NCBI GenBank assembly: GCA_902578775.1
Contig: CACHEF010000003.1
Span: 1 to 64,000 of the forward strand
DNA from: an uncultured Pelagibacteraceae bacterium
Lineage (GTDB): Bacteria; Pseudomonadota; Alphaproteobacteria; Pelagibacterales; Pelagibacteraceae
DNA: 64,000 nucleotides
Direction: 5' to 3'
How positions within the stretch are numbered: position 1 is the stretch's first letter; each line of letters starts with the position of its first letter. The notes below the pieces were generated by a model. The model did not search any database. It worked only from the letters and a program-made list of their open reading frames with translations, and was not told the origin of the DNA. A program made the translations under genes and the position numbers. Below, one piece after another: positions 6,683-13,874 of the stretch.

Positions 6683-6853
6683 TTACTGTCTAGTTGTAGC
6701 AATTGTATCTTTGTTAACACCTTTTTTAACTACGTAATCTTGGGTGCCATTAGCACCAGTCTCAACTTCCTTACGTAAATCTTTAAAAAATGTTTTTTCT
6801 TTTAAAGAATCTCTTAAGCCTTTAACTAGATTTTTAAATTCAAATTTGTTCAT
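6683..6853 (-). CDS. small hypothetical protein (56 aa)
   Basis: I do not recognise this gene. From the ATG at 6853 it would give a basic protein of 56 residues beginning MNKFEFKNLVKGLRDSL and ending in a Gly-Val-Asn-Lys-Asp-Thr-rich tail. A further ATG at 6901 would extend it by 16 residues, but those have no clear character. It follows sufA on the same strand by 66 bases and its stop codon abuts the glnA stop. Coding is supported by the full use of the space between two real genes and by a helix-like charged pattern, not by homology that I can name. Confidence 0.5.
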   Translation of the reverse strand: MNKFEFKNLVKGLRDSLKEKTFFKDLRKEVETGANGTQDYVVKKGVNKDTIATTRQ

Positions 6854-6919
6854 ATTAGAATCATATATTAGATATGCATTTAATGCAATACTGCTATGCA
6901 ACTTATAGGATACTTGTAT

Positions 6920-7255
6920 TTAATCTATTTTAAAAGACTCACCACAGCCACATCGTTCAGTCTCATTTGGATTATTGAATACAAAAGATGATGACAATTC
7001 CTCTTTTTTGTAGTCCATTTCAGTACCTAAAAGATAGATAACAGCTGCTGAATCTATAAAAACTTTTACACCTTTTTCCTCAATAACCTCGTCATTTGGA
7101 TTTAATTCCTTTGAATATTCCATAACATAAGACATTCCTGCACAACCACCAGATTTAACAGAAACTCTTACACCTATTGCATTTTTCTCTGCACCAGACA
7201 TTATCTCTTTTATTCTTGATGCCGCATTATCACTTAATCTAATTATTGGACCCAT
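6920..7255 (-). CDS. sufA: SufA/IscA-type Fe-S carrier
   Basis: A-type carrier of 111 residues that receives Fe-S clusters from the SufBCD scaffold and passes them to apo-proteins. The three ligand cysteines are C38 in GGCAGMSY and C102/C104 in CGCGESF. It is the last recognisable gene of the suf operon: its ATG overlaps the sufT stop by 1 base. IscA, SufA and ErpA have the same motif; the operon context is the reason for choosing SufA. Confidence 0.92.
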   Translation of the reverse strand: MGPIIRLSDNAASRIKEIMSGAEKNAIGVRVSVKSGGCAGMSYVMEYSKELNPNDEVIEEKGVKVFIDSAAVIYLLGTEMDYKKEELSSSFVFNNPNETERCGCGESFKID

Positions 7256-7551
7256 TATAAATTTAACTCCAATTTAGCAGCATCTGACATCATATCTTTA
7301 CTCCAAGGAGGATCCCAAACTAATTCGAGATTTACATTATCTATTCCATCTACTTGCATAGCACCCTCTTTTACTTCTTTAGGTAAGGTTTCTGCAACAG
7401 GACAATTCGGTGTAGTTAATGTCATTTTTATTTCAGCTTTACGTCCATTTACTTGTATATCATAAATTAAGCCAAGTTCATATATGTTCACTGGTAATTC
7501 AGGATCGTAAATTTTTCTAATTTCCTCAATTATTTTGTTTTTTAAATCCAT
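7255..7551 (-). CDS. sufT: SufT, MIP18/DUF59 Fe-S maturation factor
   Basis: A 98-residue MIP18-family protein that helps Fe-S cluster maturation or delivery. The family markers are Asp-Pro-Glu at 16-18 in KIYDPELPV, the TTPNCP segment with C50, and the C-terminal VWDPPWSKDMMSD. It is packed between sufU (2-base gap) and sufA (1-base overlap), the usual position in alphaproteobacterial suf operons. A freestanding paralogue (PaaD-like) is excluded by the context. Confidence 0.9.
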   Translation of the reverse strand: MDLKNKIIEEIRKIYDPELPVNIYELGLIYDIQVNGRKAEIKMTLTTPNCPVAETLPKEVKEGAMQVDGIDNVNLELVWDPPWSKDMMSDAAKLELNL

Positions 7552-7553
7552 AA

Positions 7554-8018
7554 TTAATTTTCTGTGGTTGTTTCTTTCCCATCATTTTCCATTGCAGATA
7601 TTAAAGTATGCCATGATAAGGTAGCACATTTAACTCTCATTGGATATTGTTTAACACCTGACAAGCACATTAATTTTGTTTTATCATCCTCTTTTAATAT
7701 ATTATTTTTAAGTTCAGGATTTTCTTTTATCATTCCTAGAAAGTCCTCAATTATTTCTTTAGCTTCATTATCGCTTTTTCCTTTAATCAAATCGGTCATT
7801 ATAGAAGCTGATGCCATTGATATTGCACATCCGCTTCCTTCAAAAGAAATATCCTCTACTTTTCTTTGATCATTTAATTTTAGATACACATGTACATTAT
7901 CTCCACATAGTGGATTATTACCTTTTGCATCTTTATTAAAATTTTCTGTTTTTCCTAAATTTCTAGGATTCTTTCCATGCTCTAAAATTATTTCTTGATA
8001 TAATTCTTTTAAGTTCAT
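7554..8018 (-). CDS. sufU: SufU-type NifU N-domain protein
   Basis: A 154-residue protein of the NifU-N/IscU superfamily. The metal site is C38-x-D40, C64 (GSGCAISMAS) and C131 (RVKCATLSW), with an extra cysteine at 118. The spacing between the second and third cysteines is longer than in IscU because of an insertion, which is the SufU hallmark. SufU in Gram-positive bacteria is a zinc-dependent sulfurtransferase partner of SufS, replacing SufE, and no sufE is present in this operon. It overlaps sufS by 4 bases. Whether it acts as sulfur acceptor or as scaffold is inference. Confidence 0.88.
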   Translation of the reverse strand: MNLKELYQEIILEHGKNPRNLGKTENFNKDAKGNNPLCGDNVHVYLKLNDQRKVEDISFEGSGCAISMASASIMTDLIKGKSDNEAKEIIEDFLGMIKENPELKNNILKEDDKTKLMCLSGVKQYPMRVKCATLSWHTLISAMENDGKETTTEN

Positions 8019-9235
8019 TTTAAATCAAAAATTTTTTTACAATTATTAATACCTTCATTTAATTTATCTAAATCATCTTTGGTATTATAAACTCCTAATG
8101 ATGCTCGCGCACTTGCAGGTATACCCAATTTATCATGAAGTATTTGACAACAATGATGACCTGCTCTTATAGCCACTCCAGTTTCATCCAGAATAGTTGC
8201 AATATCATGTGAATGAACTCCTTCTACAGTAAAAGATAATACTCCACCTCGCTCTTTAGGATTTCCTATTAATTTCACGGAATTATTCTTTTTCAAAATT
8301 TCTTGTCCGTATTCTATTAATTCTTTTTCATGTTTAATTATATTTTCTATTCCAATACTTTCTAAAAACTTTATTGATTGATCAAAAGCAATGACTTGTG
8401 CTGTAGCCATTGTTCCAGCTTCATACTTGTTTGGAAGTTCTCCATAAGAAATTCTATCTTTTTTTACTTCACTTATCATTCCTCCACCTCCTTGATATGG
8501 TGGAAGTTGCTCTAGCCATTTCTTTTTTCCATATAGAACTCCAAGTCCTGTCGGACCATACATTTTGTGACATGATATTGCATAAAAATCACAATCTAAG
8601 TCTTGCATATCTAAATTTAAGTGTGGTCCCCCTTGACATCCATCTACTACAACGACGATATCCTTTGAGTGCGCTAATTGAGTTATCTCTTTGATTGGTA
8701 AAACTGCGCCAGTAACATTTGACAAATGAGTTATAGCTATTACTTTTGTTTTATTTGTAATTTCTTTCTCTATATTTTCTATTGGTATATCTCCATCTTC
8801 ATTTACCTCTGCAAACTTTATTTTTATATTTTTAGTTTTTCTTAAAAAATGCCATGGAACATAATTTGAATGATGCTCTAGTTCTGTAATTAAAATCTCA
8901 TCATTTGGTTCCAAGATTGCTTGACCCAGAGTATTAGCAACTAAATTTAAGGCTTCTGTAGCACCTTTAGTAAATACAATTTCATTTTTATCTTTTGCAT
9001 TTATATATTTTTGAACAGAAGTCCTTGTATTTTCATATAAATTTGTAGCTGCAACAGCTAAATAATGAATGCTTCTCCCTACATTTGAAAATTGTTTGGA
9101 GTAAAAATCGTTTATTCTGTCCAGAACTACTTTAGGTTTTTGAGATGAATTAGCACTATCCAAATAAACTAAATCATTATTTTGAATTTTTTCATCAAAA
9201 ATTGGAAATTCTTTTTTAATATTATCTATATTCAT
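8015..9235 (-). CDS. sufS: cysteine desulfurase SufS
   Basis: PLP-dependent class V aminotransferase-fold enzyme of 406 residues that converts cysteine to alanine and passes persulfide to a partner. The PLP lysine is K224 in SCHKMYGPTG. The persulfide loop is RAGHHCCQ, with C362 and C363, a group II (SufS/CsdA) arrangement rather than IscS. The start overlaps the sufD stop by 4 bases and its own stop overlaps sufU by 4 bases, consistent with coupled synthesis of the sulfur-mobilising pair. Confidence 0.97.
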   Translation of the reverse strand: MNIDNIKKEFPIFDEKIQNNDLVYLDSANSSQKPKVVLDRINDFYSKQFSNVGRSIHYLAVAATNLYENTRTSVQKYINAKDKNEIVFTKGATEALNLVANTLGQAILEPNDEILITELEHHSNYVPWHFLRKTKNIKIKFAEVNEDGDIPIENIEKEITNKTKVIAITHLSNVTGAVLPIKEITQLAHSKDIVVVVDGCQGGPHLNLDMQDLDCDFYAISCHKMYGPTGLGVLYGKKKWLEQLPPYQGGGGMISEVKKDRISYGELPNKYEAGTMATAQVIAFDQSIKFLESIGIENIIKHEKELIEYGQEILKKNNSVKLIGNPKERGGVLSFTVEGVHSHDIATILDETGVAIRAGHHCCQILHDKLGIPASARASLGVYNTKDDLDKLNEGINNCKKIFDLK

Positions 9236-10479
9236 TCTTTTAATCCAATAATAGTTTTTATTAAGTTTTTAATTTCTGGGTCAGTGATTTTTTCAACAAC
9301 ATCTAATAAAAATCCATTAATCAAGAGTTCTTTTGATTGTTGATAATTCAAACCACGAGACATTAAATAAAAAATTGAATTTTCATCCAAGCTACCAGAT
9401 GCTGATCCATGAGAACATTTTACATCATCAGCATAAATTTCTAATTCTGGTTTTGCATTAAACTCTGATGTTTCATCTAATAATATTGCTTTGCTTAATT
9501 GATACCCATCAGTTTTTTGCGCTTTTGAGTTTACATATATTCTTCCTTGATATGCAGATTTTGAATTTTTTCCAAGAACACTTTTGATGAGTTGATAACT
9601 TTTGGTTTTCTCAACTAAATGGTTAATTGTTGTTCTTATTTCGTGTTGCTGATTTTCCTTTAATGAAAATACTCCGTTAATAAAAGCAGAAGAATACTCA
9701 CCGTTTAGATTACAATTAATTTCATTCTTTAAATAATCTGAACCAGTAGATAATATAAACGTTTCTGAAACACTATTATTACCTTGATCAATATTATTAA
9801 AAGAATATTTTAAATTATCATTTCTAAATTTATCAATTTTATAATTTTTAAGGACTGAGTCTTTTTGTAAATCAAAATTATAAAAAATATTTATAAAATT
9901 TTTAGCTGTGTTATCAGCAAAATAATCAATTAGCTTTAAACAACTATTTTCACCTAATTCAAAATCTAATCTCAAATTGATATTAGTTGAATTTATTTTA
10001 TCATTTGTTGAATGATAAATTATCAATGGTTTCTTGAGAGAATAATTTTTTTTGATTAAAATTTTAAAAACTTTATCAGTAAATGCGCTATTTAAATCAA
10101 TTAATGAATTTTCATAATCAAATGTTATATCTTTTTTAATCTCATCAATTATTTCAATTTTATTTTGGTCTTCGAAGTTAAAATCAATTTTTTCAATTCT
10201 TCCATTAATAAAAATAATTTTATTATGCTCCAAACCATCAACTAAAATAGATGGATCAATTTTATTTGAGTGTGAGTAATCATTGAAAAAACTTAAATCG
10301 TTAATATTCTTTTTAATAATTTGACTAATATCTAAAAACTTCCAATCTTCTTGCTTTCTATTTGGAAAGCCTCTTTTTATGAAATTATTTAAAAAAATTT
10401 TTTTAAACTTAATTTCTTCATCAGAAAATTTTGAAATTTTTACTATTTTATCAAAGTCTGACTGTAGTTGCTCACTCAT
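9232..10479 (-). CDS. sufD: Fe-S scaffold subunit SufD
   Basis: Subunit of the SufB-SufC-SufD scaffold on which Fe-S clusters form, 415 residues. The C-terminal half has the beta-helix repeats and the conserved segment LEIYADDVKCSHGSASG that all SufB/SufD proteins share; its Cys and His are at the scaffold interface. The N-terminal 200 residues are A+T-biased and poorly conserved, as usual for SufD. sufC ends immediately before its start with no gap. Confidence 0.95.
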   Translation of the reverse strand: MSEQLQSDFDKIVKISKFSDEEIKFKKIFLNNFIKRGFPNRKQEDWKFLDISQIIKKNINDLSFFNDYSHSNKIDPSILVDGLEHNKIIFINGRIEKIDFNFEDQNKIEIIDEIKKDITFDYENSLIDLNSAFTDKVFKILIKKNYSLKKPLIIYHSTNDKINSTNINLRLDFELGENSCLKLIDYFADNTAKNFINIFYNFDLQKDSVLKNYKIDKFRNDNLKYSFNNIDQGNNSVSETFILSTGSDYLKNEINCNLNGEYSSAFINGVFSLKENQQHEIRTTINHLVEKTKSYQLIKSVLGKNSKSAYQGRIYVNSKAQKTDGYQLSKAILLDETSEFNAKPELEIYADDVKCSHGSASGSLDENSIFYLMSRGLNYQQSKELLINGFLLDVVEKITDPEIKNLIKTIIGLKE

Positions 10480-11214
10480 TTAATTAAAACTTTCGTATCC
10501 TTTTTTTTCTAATTCGATTGCTAATTCTGGACCACCAGATTTAATTATTTTTCCATTCATCAGAACATGAACAAAGTCAGGTTTAATGTAATCTAATAAT
10601 CTTTGATAATGGGTTATTATTAAAAAAGAATTTTTTTTATTTCTAAGAGTGTTCACACCGTCCGCAACTATCTTTAAAGCATCTATATCAAGTCCAGAGT
10701 CTGTTTCATCTAAAATGGATAATTTTGGGGCTAACATTGACATTTGCAGAATTTCATTTTTCTTTTTTTCTCCACCTGAAAACCCAACATTCAATTGTCT
10801 ATTCAGTTTTTCTTCATCAAATTTTAATTCTTTAGCTTTTTCTTTAACAAGTTTTAAAAATTCAATCGCATCTAACTCTTTCTCTCCTCTTGCTTTTCTT
10901 ATTGCATTTAATGATGTTTTTAAAAATATGTTTGTATTGACACCAGGAATTTCTAATGGATATTGGAAAGCCAAAAATATTCCTTTGTGTGCTCTTTCTT
11001 CGGTCTCAAGATCAAACAAATTTTTATTTTCAAATAAGATTTCACCTGATACTTCATACCCATTTTTTCCTGATAGAATGTTAGATAATGTGCTTTTTCC
11101 TGAACCGTTTGGGCCCATAATTGCATGAACTTCGCCAGGGTTTATATTCAGTGAAAAACCCTTTAAAATTGATTTGTTCTCGACATTCGCATTTAAATTA
11201 CTTATTTTAAGCAT
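10480..11214 (-). CDS. sufC: Suf ATPase SufC
   Basis: ABC-type ATPase of 244 residues that drives conformational changes in the SufBCD scaffold; cytosolic, with no membrane partner. Walker A is GPNGSGKST near residues 34-42, the ABC signature is FSGGEKKKNEI near 150, and the Walker B/D-loop region is LSILDETDSGLDIDA. The ATG overlaps the sufB stop by 1 base in a TAATG arrangement. Confidence 0.97.
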   Translation of the reverse strand: MLKISNLNANVENKSILKGFSLNINPGEVHAIMGPNGSGKSTLSNILSGKNGYEVSGEILFENKNLFDLETEERAHKGIFLAFQYPLEIPGVNTNIFLKTSLNAIRKARGEKELDAIEFLKLVKEKAKELKFDEEKLNRQLNVGFSGGEKKKNEILQMSMLAPKLSILDETDSGLDIDALKIVADGVNTLRNKKNSFLIITHYQRLLDYIKPDFVHVLMNGKIIKSGGPELAIELEKKGYESFN

Positions 11215-12656
11215 TAACCAACACTCCCCTCTAAGCTGATACCTACAAGTTTCTGAGCTTCAACTGCAAACTCCATTGGTAATTGTTGCAGCACTTCCTT
11301 ACAAAAACCATTAACAATTAATCCTACAGCTTCTTCAGGATTAAGTCCTCTTTGTTGACAATAATGTAATTGTTCTTCACTTATTTTTGATGTTGTAGCT
11401 TCATGAGCAATATTGGAGTCAAAATTTTTATTTTTGATATAAGGAACAGTATGAGCTCCACATTTATTTCCCATTAATAAAGAGTCACATTGTGTATAAT
11501 TGCTAGAATTTTTAGCTTTTGAATTAATATCTACTAAACCTCTGTAAGTCATATCAGAAAATCCAGCACTTATTCCTTTTGAAATAATTTTGCTTTTAGT
11601 ATTTTTTCCTAAATGAATCATCTTTGTGCCAGTGTCTGCCTTTTGATGATTATTGGTAATTGCTATAGAATAAAACTCACCAATTGAATTATCACCTTTT
11701 AATATGCAGCTTGGATATTTCCAAGTTATAGCTGAACCTGTCTCGACTTGTGTCCAAGAAATCTTAGAATTATTTCCCTTACATAATCCTCTCTTAGTTA
11801 CAAAATTATAAATTCCTCCTTTGCCATTTTCATCGCCAGGATACCAATTTTGAACAGTTGAATATTTTATTTCTGCATCATCTAAAGCTATTAATTCAAC
11901 ATTAGCTGCATGCAACTGATTTTCATCTCTCATTGGTGCAGTACAACCTTCCAGGTAACTTACATAGCTTCCTTTATCAGCTATAATTAATGTTCTCTCG
12001 AATTGTCCAGTTTCAGATGCATTGATTCTAAAATATGTTGAAAGTTCCATCGGACATCTTACTCCTTCTGGAATATAAACAAATGATCCATCAGTAAAAA
12101 CAGCAGAGTTTAGTGTAGCAAAGAAATGATCAGTAACTGGTATTACTGTACCTAAATATTTTTTTACAAGATCAGGATGTTTTTGAATTGCCTCTGACAT
12201 TGAACAAAAAATTATTCCATGTTTAGTCAACTCACCTTTAAAAGTAGTTGCAACTGAAACAGAGTCGAACACAGCATCTACAGCAATTCCATTTAATCTT
12301 GCTTGTTCTTGTAATGGAATTCCAAGTTTTTTATATGTATCTAAAAGTTTAGGATCAAGCTCATCTAGACTTTTTGGCTTATCCTTCATGCTTTTTGGTG
12401 CTGAATAATAATATAAATCTTGATAGTCAATTTTAGGATATTTTGGTTTTTGCCAATTAGGTTCTTTTAAAAGCTTTAATCTCTCGAAAGCATTTAATCT
12501 AAAGTCTAACATCCATTGTGGCTCTTTTTTGATATTAGAAATAAACTTTATAACATCTTCGTTTAACCCTTTCGGGGCTTTAATATTTTCTATATCAGTA
12601 GTAAAACCGTATTTATAATCTTTTAACTTTTCTATGTCTTTTTCTCTAGTGTCCAT
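11214..12656 (-). CDS. sufB: Fe-S scaffold subunit SufB
   Basis: Main scaffold subunit for cluster assembly, 480 residues, close to the normal length of about 490. Conserved blocks include [18 protein letters not shown], the [19 protein letters not shown] segment and a near-C-terminal [20 protein letters not shown]. It is the first structural gene after the regulator iscR, with 2 bases between them, so both come from the same promoter. It is the slowest-evolving gene in the operon. Confidence 0.97.
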
Positions 12657-12658
12657 AT

Positions 12659-13084
12659 TTAAATTCTTCTCTCAGAATTATCTTTAATAAGATCTTCTAA
12701 ACTTTTTTTTTCAAAAAAATCATTAATATGATTTTCAAGCTCATCCCATAAATTATGAGTTAAACATTTTGTAGATTTACCATTGCAGCTCTTTTTAGAC
12801 TCTTTTTTGCACTGAACAGTTTTAACCTTTTCATCTACAGCATCAAAAATATTAGTAAGTTTTATCTCTTTAGCTTTTTTGTTTAAAACATAACCACCTT
12901 GATTTCCTCTAACACTTTGAACAATCTCTTTTTTTCTAAGCTTAAAAAAAATTTGTTCCAAGTAATCGAGGGAAATACCTTGTCTAAGTGAAATGTCTCT
13001 TAGGGATACAGGGTTAATATTATTAAACCTCGCAAGATCCGCTAAAGCCATTACTGCATATCTACCTTTAGATGTAAGTTTCAT
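12659..13084 (-). CDS. iscR: Rrf2-family Fe-S regulator IscR
   Basis: Winged-helix regulator of 141 residues that senses Fe-S status. The N-terminus [18 protein letters not shown] and the recognition region are typical. The cluster-binding cysteines are C92, C100 and C107 followed by LTH (H110), spaced x7 and x6 rather than x5 and x5 as in E. coli IscR. The final cysteine with LTHNLW is the IscR form, not the RirA or NsrR form. It heads the suf operon and a strong match to the IscR type-1 operator lies over its own promoter, so autorepression by the cluster-bound form is the natural reading. Confidence 0.93.
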
Positions 13085-13101
13085 AATCCGCTATTTTACT
13101 G

Positions 13102-13130
13102 GGTATATATAAACCCGACTAAAATAGTCA
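13102..13130 (-). promoter_or_regulatory. iscR-suf promoter
   Basis: Reading leftwards, TTGACT (13125-13130) is followed after 16 bases by TATATA (13103-13108); an 18-base spacer would give TATACC. The start of transcription would fall about 10 bases before the iscR ATG at 13084, so the leader is very short. This would drive iscR and the seven suf genes. Confidence 0.7.
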
Positions 13131-13134
13131 AGTA
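13110..13134 (-). promoter_or_regulatory. IscR type-1 operator over the suf promoter
   Basis: A 25-base site on the minus strand runs ATACTTGACT, ATTTT, AGTCGGGTTT. Against the E. coli IscR type-1 consensus as I recall it (ATASYYGACT, RWWWY, AGTCRRSTAT), all positions agree except one near the 3' end. The dyad GACT/AGTC is intact. The site covers the -35 box and most of the spacer, a position suited to repression. Confidence 0.75.
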
Positions 13135-13192
13135 TCTTAAAGAAAAAAATACTAACATTTTGTCACGCAGTTGTGATAAACCTAATTTTTTT

Positions 13193-13209
13193 TTGAGAAT
13201 GATACTCAA
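13193..13209. promoter_or_regulatory. Fur-box-like palindrome
   Basis: TTGAG-AATGATA-CTCAA, a perfect 5-base inverted repeat around 7 bases, ends 8 bases before the ATG of the alpha/beta hydrolase gene. Its core matches 12 of 15 positions of the classic Fur repeat TGATAATGATTATCA. A possible promoter, TTGTCA (13160-13165) with a weak -10 at 13183-13188, would place the transcript start inside it. Family of the binding regulator is inference. Confidence 0.4.
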
Positions 13210-13217
13210 TAACAATT

Positions 13218-13874
13218 ATGGATAACAAAATTTTAGAAATTTTTATACCTGGGCCTGCAGGCAGACTTGAGGCTAAATATTTTAAGAGTAAAAAAAATAC
13301 TTCACCAGTTGCTTTAGTATTGCAACCACATCCACAATATGGAGGCACTATGAATAATAAAGTGGTGGTAGACATTTTTAAAACATTTGTAGAAAATGAT
13401 TTTTCAGTCTGTAGGGTTAATTTTAGAGGTGTTGGTAAAAGTGATGGTGAGTTTGATAATGGACAGGGTGAATTAGCTGATGCAGCAGCAGCCTTGGATT
13501 GGCTTGAAAGAGAAAATTTTGACAATTCTCAATGTTGGGTTTCTGGTTTTTCATTTGGGTCTTTAATTGCAATGCAATTATTAATGCGTAGACCTGAAAT
13601 AAATAGATTTATAGCAATTTCACCTCAACCAAATGTTTATGATTTTTCATTTTTATCACCATGTCCCACTTCTGGGATGATGATTTATGGAAAAAAAGAC
13701 GAACTTGTTCCTTTAGAGTATATTAATGAGTTAAATAAAAGATTGAGCTCTCAAAAAGGAATTAAAGTTGAATTCCAAGCTGTGTCAGAAGCTAATCATT
13801 TTTTTTCTAAAAATGAAGATCAATTAATTAAATATTTAGATAAGTATATTAAAAAAGAGACTGCTTTATATTAA
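13218..13874 (+). CDS. alpha/beta hydrolase (COG2945 type)
   Basis: Soluble serine hydrolase of 218 residues. The nucleophile elbow is GFSFG (Ser in WVSGFSFGSLIAM), with the oxyanion region HPQYGGTMNNKV near the N-terminus, a YGKKDELVPLEY loop carrying the acid, and ANHFF near the C-terminus carrying the histidine. This length and the HP-x-GGTMNNKVV motif fit the COG2945 family of small alpha/beta hydrolases. The natural substrate is not known. The gene is divergent from iscR and overlaps the convergent anmK by four bases (TTAA, a stop on both strands). Confidence 0.85.
   Translation: MDNKILEIFIPGPAGRLEAKYFKSKKNTSPVALVLQPHPQYGGTMNNKVVVDIFKTFVENDFSVCRVNFRGVGKSDGEFDNGQGELADAAAALDWLERENFDNSQCWVSGFSFGSLIAMQLLMRRPEINRFIAISPQPNVYDFSFLSPCPTSGMMIYGKKDELVPLEYINELNKRLSSQKGIKVEFQAVSEANHFFSKNEDQLIKYLDKYIKKETALY

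Follow-up and report, generated by a model that had tools for sequence, protein, structure and literature searches.

The window analysed here, that is the whole 64-kb stretch of DNA, carries on its minus strand an operon for iron-sulfur cluster assembly, with iscR as the first gene, divergent from an alpha/beta hydrolase gene on the plus strand:

12659–13084, minus strand: iscR, Rrf2-family regulator of 141 aa, with C-x7-C-x6-C-x2-H, E43 and D40 (Pfam Rrf2, 128 bits; TIGR02010, 174.4 bits)
11214–12656, minus strand: sufB (NCBIfam SufB, over cut-off)
10480–11214, minus strand: sufC ATPase (ABC_tran; operon order as SAR11_0740)
9232–10479, minus strand: sufD (SUFBD_core)
8015–9235, minus strand: sufS cysteine desulfurase (TIGR01979, over cut-off)
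7554–8018, minus strand: NifU-like scaffold, the sufE position in SAR11_0743 (NifU_N; operon order)
7255–7551, minus strand: SUF-associated protein of the paaD type (TIGR02945, 143.2 bits, just below the cut-off of 143.4)
6920–7255, minus strand: sufA/HesB-type carrier (TIGR01997, 131 bits, cut-off 136.2; TIGR00049, over cut-off)
13218–13874, plus strand: divergent alpha/beta hydrolase (Abhydrolase_1, 52 bits; the same neighbour at 14/16 operator loci outside the genus)

The eight-gene order, iscR-sufBCDS-nifU-paaD-sufA, equals that of SAR11_0738-0745 in Candidatus Pelagibacter ubique (PMC2864753; this and the other PMC papers are cited throughout from excerpts), and the nearest named relatives are Pelagibacteraceae, in agreement with the first-pass annotation of this DNA, which had spoken of a SAR11-type suf promoter. 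A 72-aa ORF directly after sufA, also on the minus strand (window 6683-6901), has no Pfam match and may be the last gene of the operon. The iscR product scores above the Pfam cut-off for Rrf2, and its best NCBIfam model is TIGR02010 (IscR), at a score below the cut-off of 207.55; the gene is the sole Rrf2 gene in the assembly.

The divergent gap between iscR and the hydrolase gene measures 133 bp, and four features can be placed in it:

13111–13135, minus strand: IscR type-1-like operator of 25 bp with a GACT-N5-AGTC dyad (consensus match, uniqueness, conservation)
13126–13131, minus strand: -35 hexamer TTGACT, within the operator, 5/6 (sequence; TTGACY in 81/81 genus upstream regions)
13104–13109, minus strand: predicted -10 hexamer TATATA, spacer 16, 4/6 (comparison of genus upstream regions)
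13194–13213, plus strand: putative Fur-type iron box TGAGAATGATACTCAATAAC, near the hydrolase start (lineage pattern matches)

The 25-mer ATACTTGACTATTTTAGTCGGGTTT, read on the minus strand from 13135 to 13111, differs from ATASYYGACTRWWWYAGTCRRSTAT, the 25-bp consensus of Escherichia coli type-1 IscR sites (PMC3899308), by one mismatch, at position 24, and its GACT/AGTC dyad is whole. The first-pass annotation had claimed agreement at all but one position and a retained dyad, both of which the count bears out; it had the right site on the right strand, with coordinates (13110-13134) one base too low. The operator lies 26 bp before iscR and 82 bp from the hydrolase start. It is the sole match at ≤3 mismatches in the window (dinucleotide shuffles gave a mean of 0.02, with a match in 2 of 100), and the genome-wide search that had been proposed as a check likewise returned this one place at ≤3 mismatches in the 1,128,687-base assembly, which is 88.7% complete.

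The operator overlaps the predicted promoter of the suf operon. As had been claimed from the window alone, it covers the -35 element and the spacer of the iscR promoter, with TTGACT inside it, and the overlapped -35 recurs as TTGACY in all 81 genus upstream regions (the window plus 80 loci; TTGACT in 42, TTGACC in 39), with TATATA, TATAAA or TTTAAA at a spacing of 16 in 77 of them. This promoter is absent from the output of a generic promoter scan, because that scan demands a final T in the -10 hexamer. Column identity averages 0.89 across the operator, 0.50 over the nine adjoining bases (13136-13144) and 0.60 in the leader; the whole spacer at 13136-13161 is itself fairly conserved (0.755), and the hydrolase gene reaches 0.82 over its first 67 bases. 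A longer inverted repeat, CTATTTT...GGGT / ACCC...AAAATAG, runs from the operator into the leader (window 13085-13126, minus strand).

As to the regulator, alignment to solved IscR chains points to a cluster-ligand pattern of three cysteines and a histidine, C-x7-C-x6-C-x2-H, the cysteine spacing being as the first-pass annotation had it. The corresponding spacing is x5/x5 in E. coli (C92, C98, C104, H107) and x9/x6 in Caulobacter crescentus (C95/C105/C112/H115), which likewise has three cysteines and a histidine. The tension that had been seen between altered cysteine spacing and an unchanged operator dissolves on comparison: C-x7-C-x6-C is found in 163/163 complete IscR proteins across the order, some of which may be the same organism present in two collections (two more loci are incomplete), and the Caulobacter pattern, C-x9-C-x6-C-x2-H, is close. 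Because this spacing is usual across the order, there is no paradox in its pairing with a near-canonical operator. The window's IscR also retains E43, the residue that keeps apo-IscR off type-1 sites (PMC3899308). Its residue 40 is D; the E. coli equivalent, S40, is, with E43, among the contacts at a type-2 site.

Conservation of the site was followed at two scales. One is the set of 81 genus regions, made up of the window and the 80 best-ranking among 555 confirmed relatives, every one of these 80 titled Pelagibacteraceae, Pelagibacterales or Candidatus Pelagibacter. The site is present in 81/81, at 26-32 bp before iscR, with one, two or three mismatches in 37, 37 and 7 regions, respectively. 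The other is a sample of 297 genomes of the order, tabulated by hand, in which the site (≤3 mismatches) or iscR was counted anywhere in the genome, and in which genomes without both may be merely incomplete. The site occurs in 215/297 of these, and the reversed pattern, used as a control, in about 48/297 (hand count). Within the genus of the window (198 genomes, 179 with iscR), 176/179 iscR-bearing genomes also have the site. The three misses are a genome whose iscR match starts at base 10 of a contig (G168), one in which only the last 87 positions of the profile matched (G244), and one that, by eye, has the same site at 4 mismatches (G261); two further genomes (G159 and G247) have the site and no iscR match. 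The first-pass annotation had named absence of the site upstream of iscR in relatives as grounds for refutation, and the finding in 81/81 regions and 176/179 genomes is the reverse. The strict core ACT-N5-AGT was tried as a marker and set aside: it is found in 34/81 genus regions and in 15/24 loci of the sister genera g3, g5, g6 and g7. With GACC and GGTC halves so frequent, it marks the site poorly, and a matrix was used in its place.

A second family, f2, maintains the site in a different setting. Of its 53 genomes 38 have iscR, and 37 of these 38 also have the site (G073 has iscR without a match); iscR is present in all 30 f2 loci fetched. In the four loci that were read, the site lies between the hydrolase gene (13-17 bp) and cysE (63-65 bp), with iscR second, which implies that the location of the site is tied to the promoter rather than to the start of iscR. 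The identity of CysE was confirmed in one locus (TIGR01172, 213 bits). In these four loci (L084-L086 and L111), cysE (serine O-acetyltransferase) heads the operon, with cysteine supply behind the same operator. Given the distances to cysE and to the hydrolase gene, the operator's action in this family is less clear.

In the other genera of the window's own family (46 genomes), the site has drifted or been lost. None of the 38 genomes with iscR has it at ≤3 mismatches. A related dyad, such as AATCCTGACTAAAATAGTAGGAATT, is found 29-35 bp before iscR in g3, g5, g6 and g7, at 4-9 mismatches (24 of the 38 iscR-bearing genomes were looked at). With a matrix derived from the genus and f2 sites, and 200 mononucleotide shuffles per locus, the best score falls at the homologous place in 24/24 loci of these four genera, each with a shuffle p of 0.03 or less. 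Recognition at the drifted sites may be weak or changed. Several g5 loci (L145-L163) tend to a symmetric TACT/AGTA operator with AATTC/GAATT flanks, and their IscR segments have A40, so that a changed specificity of operator and IscR is possible in this genus, as judged from these sequences. A recognition-helix residue that tracks the drifted operators was sought among the commonest six segments per clade and none was convincing; at position 40 the genus has D and g5 has A, with S seen in g3, in g6 and in most of f2.

A more drastic case is presented by g2 and g4 (six genomes, three of them single-contig), in which the Rrf2 gene is absent from 6/6 and sufB directly faces the hydrolase gene. 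The matrix scan of this gap found no stretch above shuffles in any of the six (p 0.055 to 0.92). In a midpoint-rooted tree of 38 SufB sequences, with f2 left out, g2 and g4 form one clade (0.994) inside a clade of g2, g3 and g4 (1.0), and the joint loss of iscR and the site is therefore counted as one event; on these gene contents and this tree it was probably a single loss. As to gene order, the g3 loci (L175-L177) have an iscS-like gene directly between iscR and sufB, and the loci of g4 (L178-L181) and g2 (L182-L183) have no Rrf2 gene.

The site can also be traced in the wider class. In a sample of 337 genomes, 62 have a match at ≤3 mismatches, as against some 16 with the pattern reversed (counted by hand). 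Two of the 29 new loci inspected belong to Pelagibacter. Among the remaining 27, the site is at cysE, iscR or iscS in 16, 14 of which have the hydrolase on the other side, and 11/27 lack any of the queried genes. As these loci were chosen for having a site, they tell where sites lie and not what share of iscR genes has one. The hydrolase is the neighbour in most Rhodobacteraceae and Rhizobiaceae (PMC6956336), and the arrangement looks old in the alphaproteobacteria.

Comparable arrangements are known from well-studied systems. In E. coli and Pseudomonas aeruginosa, the isc operon is autorepressed by [2Fe-2S]-IscR acting at type-1 sites (PMC3899308), and the window shares with these the consensus, the overlap with the promoter, the presence of iscR in its own operon, E43 and the three cysteines and histidine; it differs in having one site found, before a suf-type operon, where the isc operons have two or three (PMC3899308). 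Caulobacter crescentus also possesses a single operon for iron-sulfur cluster assembly, isc-suf, with IscR over the -35 element, as supported by a ChIP peak over the -35 of iscR and by EMSA (PMC11475020). However, Caulobacter has a large regulon, estimated at 302 genes, and a Type I motif that is rich in A and loosely defined (PMC11475020), whereas the SAR11 site is close to canonical and, at the stringency applied here, the only one. In Rhodobacter sphaeroides, the isc-suf operon with its promoter P2 likewise has a putative hydrolase, RSP_0444, as divergent neighbour (PMC6956336; PMC4618611). The main iscR promoter there is more strongly repressed by holo-IscR and has a predicted IscR box at -36 to -19 (PMC6956336), like the promoter site of the window; the Rhodobacter IscR, however, contains just one cysteine and governs an Iron-Rhodo-box regulon, and iscS follows iscR there and not in the window. 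A box upstream of Rhodobacter iscR had been predicted earlier (Rodionov et al., 2006, as cited in PMC6956336 and PMC4618611).

The closest comparison is with Candidatus P. ubique HTCC1062, which has the same eight-gene suf operon, induced about twofold (PMC2864753). Under iron limitation, SAR11_0738-0745 rose 1.76- to 2.44-fold (1.76-fold for the regulator gene, at a P of 0.062, and 1.80- to 2.44-fold for the seven suf genes); the suf transcripts rose and the Suf proteins did not (PMC2864753). The main text of that paper names Fur and Irr and nowhere mentions IscR, and the excerpts used here assign no operator to the operon. Our search of one collection of papers returned no earlier description of an IscR site in SAR11 or Pelagibacter, with the proviso that the study of Rodionov et al. 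(2006) may include Pelagibacter, and nothing on iron-sulfur in IMCC9063 or HIMB114.

Overall, this is very likely a case of ordinary autorepression, in which IscR, when loaded with its cluster, acts at this single type-1 operator and represses the operon to which it belongs, iscR-sufBCDS-nifU-paaD-sufA. The position of the site, its match, its overlap with the promoter, its conservation and its joint absence with iscR are direct observations at these loci. From them, and from the systems above, we infer that the window's IscR binds the site, that it does so in the holo form and that binding represses. As the site overlaps the -35 element and the spacer, holo-IscR bound there would bar RNA polymerase from the promoter; under a shortage of iron or clusters, IscR would lose its cluster and leave the site, and the freed promoter would let the Suf operon rise about twofold. 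The operator is thus probably real, and a further case of the known type-1 IscR autoregulation. The first-pass annotation had expected one of the few readable regulons of a streamlined genome; with the type-1 pattern at ≤3 mismatches, the regulon comes down to one promoter, and a second match is found in just 2/198 genus genomes, at different places and each inside an ORF. A larger regulon is possible beyond this threshold.

The alternative that deserves most attention is that the main target of the site is the divergent hydrolase gene, or that it serves this gene and the suf operon together. The shared gap invites this reading, as do the hydrolase neighbour kept across the class (14/16 non-Pelagibacter operator loci at cysE/iscR/iscS) and the four f2 loci in which the site is 13-17 bp before the hydrolase start. 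We nevertheless hold it unlikely, as in the genus it is the suf-side -35 that is overlapped, in 81/81 regions, the window's site being 82 bp from the hydrolase start, and as the site has gone together with iscR while the hydrolase stays. The excerpted part of the P. ubique list of induced genes includes SAR11_0738-0745 and not SAR11_0737, assumed to be the hydrolase (PMC2864753), and the Rhodobacter neighbour RSP_0444 shows small responses only (PMC6956336). Less probable again is the proposal that apo-IscR, or a mixed form, acts as an activator at this site. The operon is of the Suf type, which apo-IscR activates in E. coli (PMC6956336), but a type 1 motif over the -35 is a repressor's place, and iscR lies within the operon, as in the autorepressed isc operons.

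Two further explanations dispense with IscR. The segment scores as terminator-like on the minus strand (1 found, shuffle mean 0.2), and 56 nt of that strand fold with an RNA z of -3.59 in the window, which would suit a role as RNA hairpin or intrinsic terminator in place of protein binding. The segment, however, lies over the -35, in a divergent gap upstream of both starts; the hairpin in the window's leader was rejected as a candidate because one of its arms is poorly conserved among relatives (identity 0.60), and Rfam gave no match at gathering score in 12600-13400, leaving this explanation very improbable. As to a chance palindrome in AT-rich DNA, single matches at 3 mismatches are not rare per genome, judging from the reversed pattern (about 48/297 order genomes), but the fixed place and the conservation (81/81 regions, 215/297 order genomes) refute chance, as do the class sample (62/337 versus about 16) and the 16/27 non-Pelagibacter loci at cysE/iscR/iscS, and we consider this practically negligible.

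The hydrolase side of the gap holds a second candidate element. The lineage pattern of TGAGAATGATACTCAATAAC is found at ≤2 mismatches in 78/81 genus gaps, a count that is not independent because the pattern came from the same alignment; the best place is always 120-139 bp before iscR, and shuffled copies reach 4 mismatches at best. The Fur 7-1-7 box is the heptamer dyad TGATAATNATTATCA, from which the window's box differs by 3 mismatches by eye. In g5-g7, a Fur-type dyad within 2 mismatches of TGATAATNATTATCA occurs in 20/21, and nine loci of g2, g3 and g4, with shorter stretches, are at 4-6 mismatches, both counts being without shuffle control. The Fur consensus GATAATGATAATCATTATC was also scanned against the window's own genome and abandoned: it gave four places at 3 mismatches, none at the hydrolase/iscR gap, and the lineage-derived form did better.

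Independently of that alignment, the next best place for the iron box in the assembly (2 mismatches; L224:1501-1520) precedes a solute-binding protein gene by 45 bp. This gene matches SBP families, with no NCBIfam model over cut-off, and is, judging from its sequence, presumably of the sfuC type. The iron box is found in 116/121 genus genomes, as compared to about 19 for the reversed pattern (hand count). Of 30 iron-box loci fetched, 23 have this SBP gene beside the box (one of them as a partial match), three are the hydrolase/iscR gap and four are neither. The box recurs at both places across the genus, often in overlapping copies at the sfuC-like gene. The assembly holds two FUR-family genes, one of which (L258:1432-2424; G000:C4) encodes an HHHFYD stretch, presumably Irr-like, and has a weak iron-box copy (3 mismatches) close upstream; the gene facing it is presumably fabA-like.

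As a tentative reading of these patterns, possible rather than probable, the gap may be a two-input iron switch, the suf side being served by the IscR operator and the hydrolase side by a Fur/Irr-family box that is shared with the sfuC-type promoter. The genera g1, g5, g6 and g7 would keep both inputs; g3 would be without the iron box; g2 and g4 would be without iron box, iscR and operator, leaving suf without such control; and in g5, where the operator has drifted to TACT/AGTA, the specificity of IscR would possibly have changed.

In conclusion, the near-canonical, conserved operator presents a testable control point for iron-sulfur assembly in SAR11, and it is a likely cause of the twofold rise of suf known under iron limitation. 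One lineage is naturally without both iscR and the operator, and thereby allows the value of this control to be tested by comparison. The iron box shared by the sfuC-like genes and the hydrolase/iscR gap would be a second readable control, still putative, and if the two-input switch holds true, these genera would serve as naturally occurring wild and knock-out backgrounds for the control of iron-sulfur assembly in the most common bacteria of the ocean.
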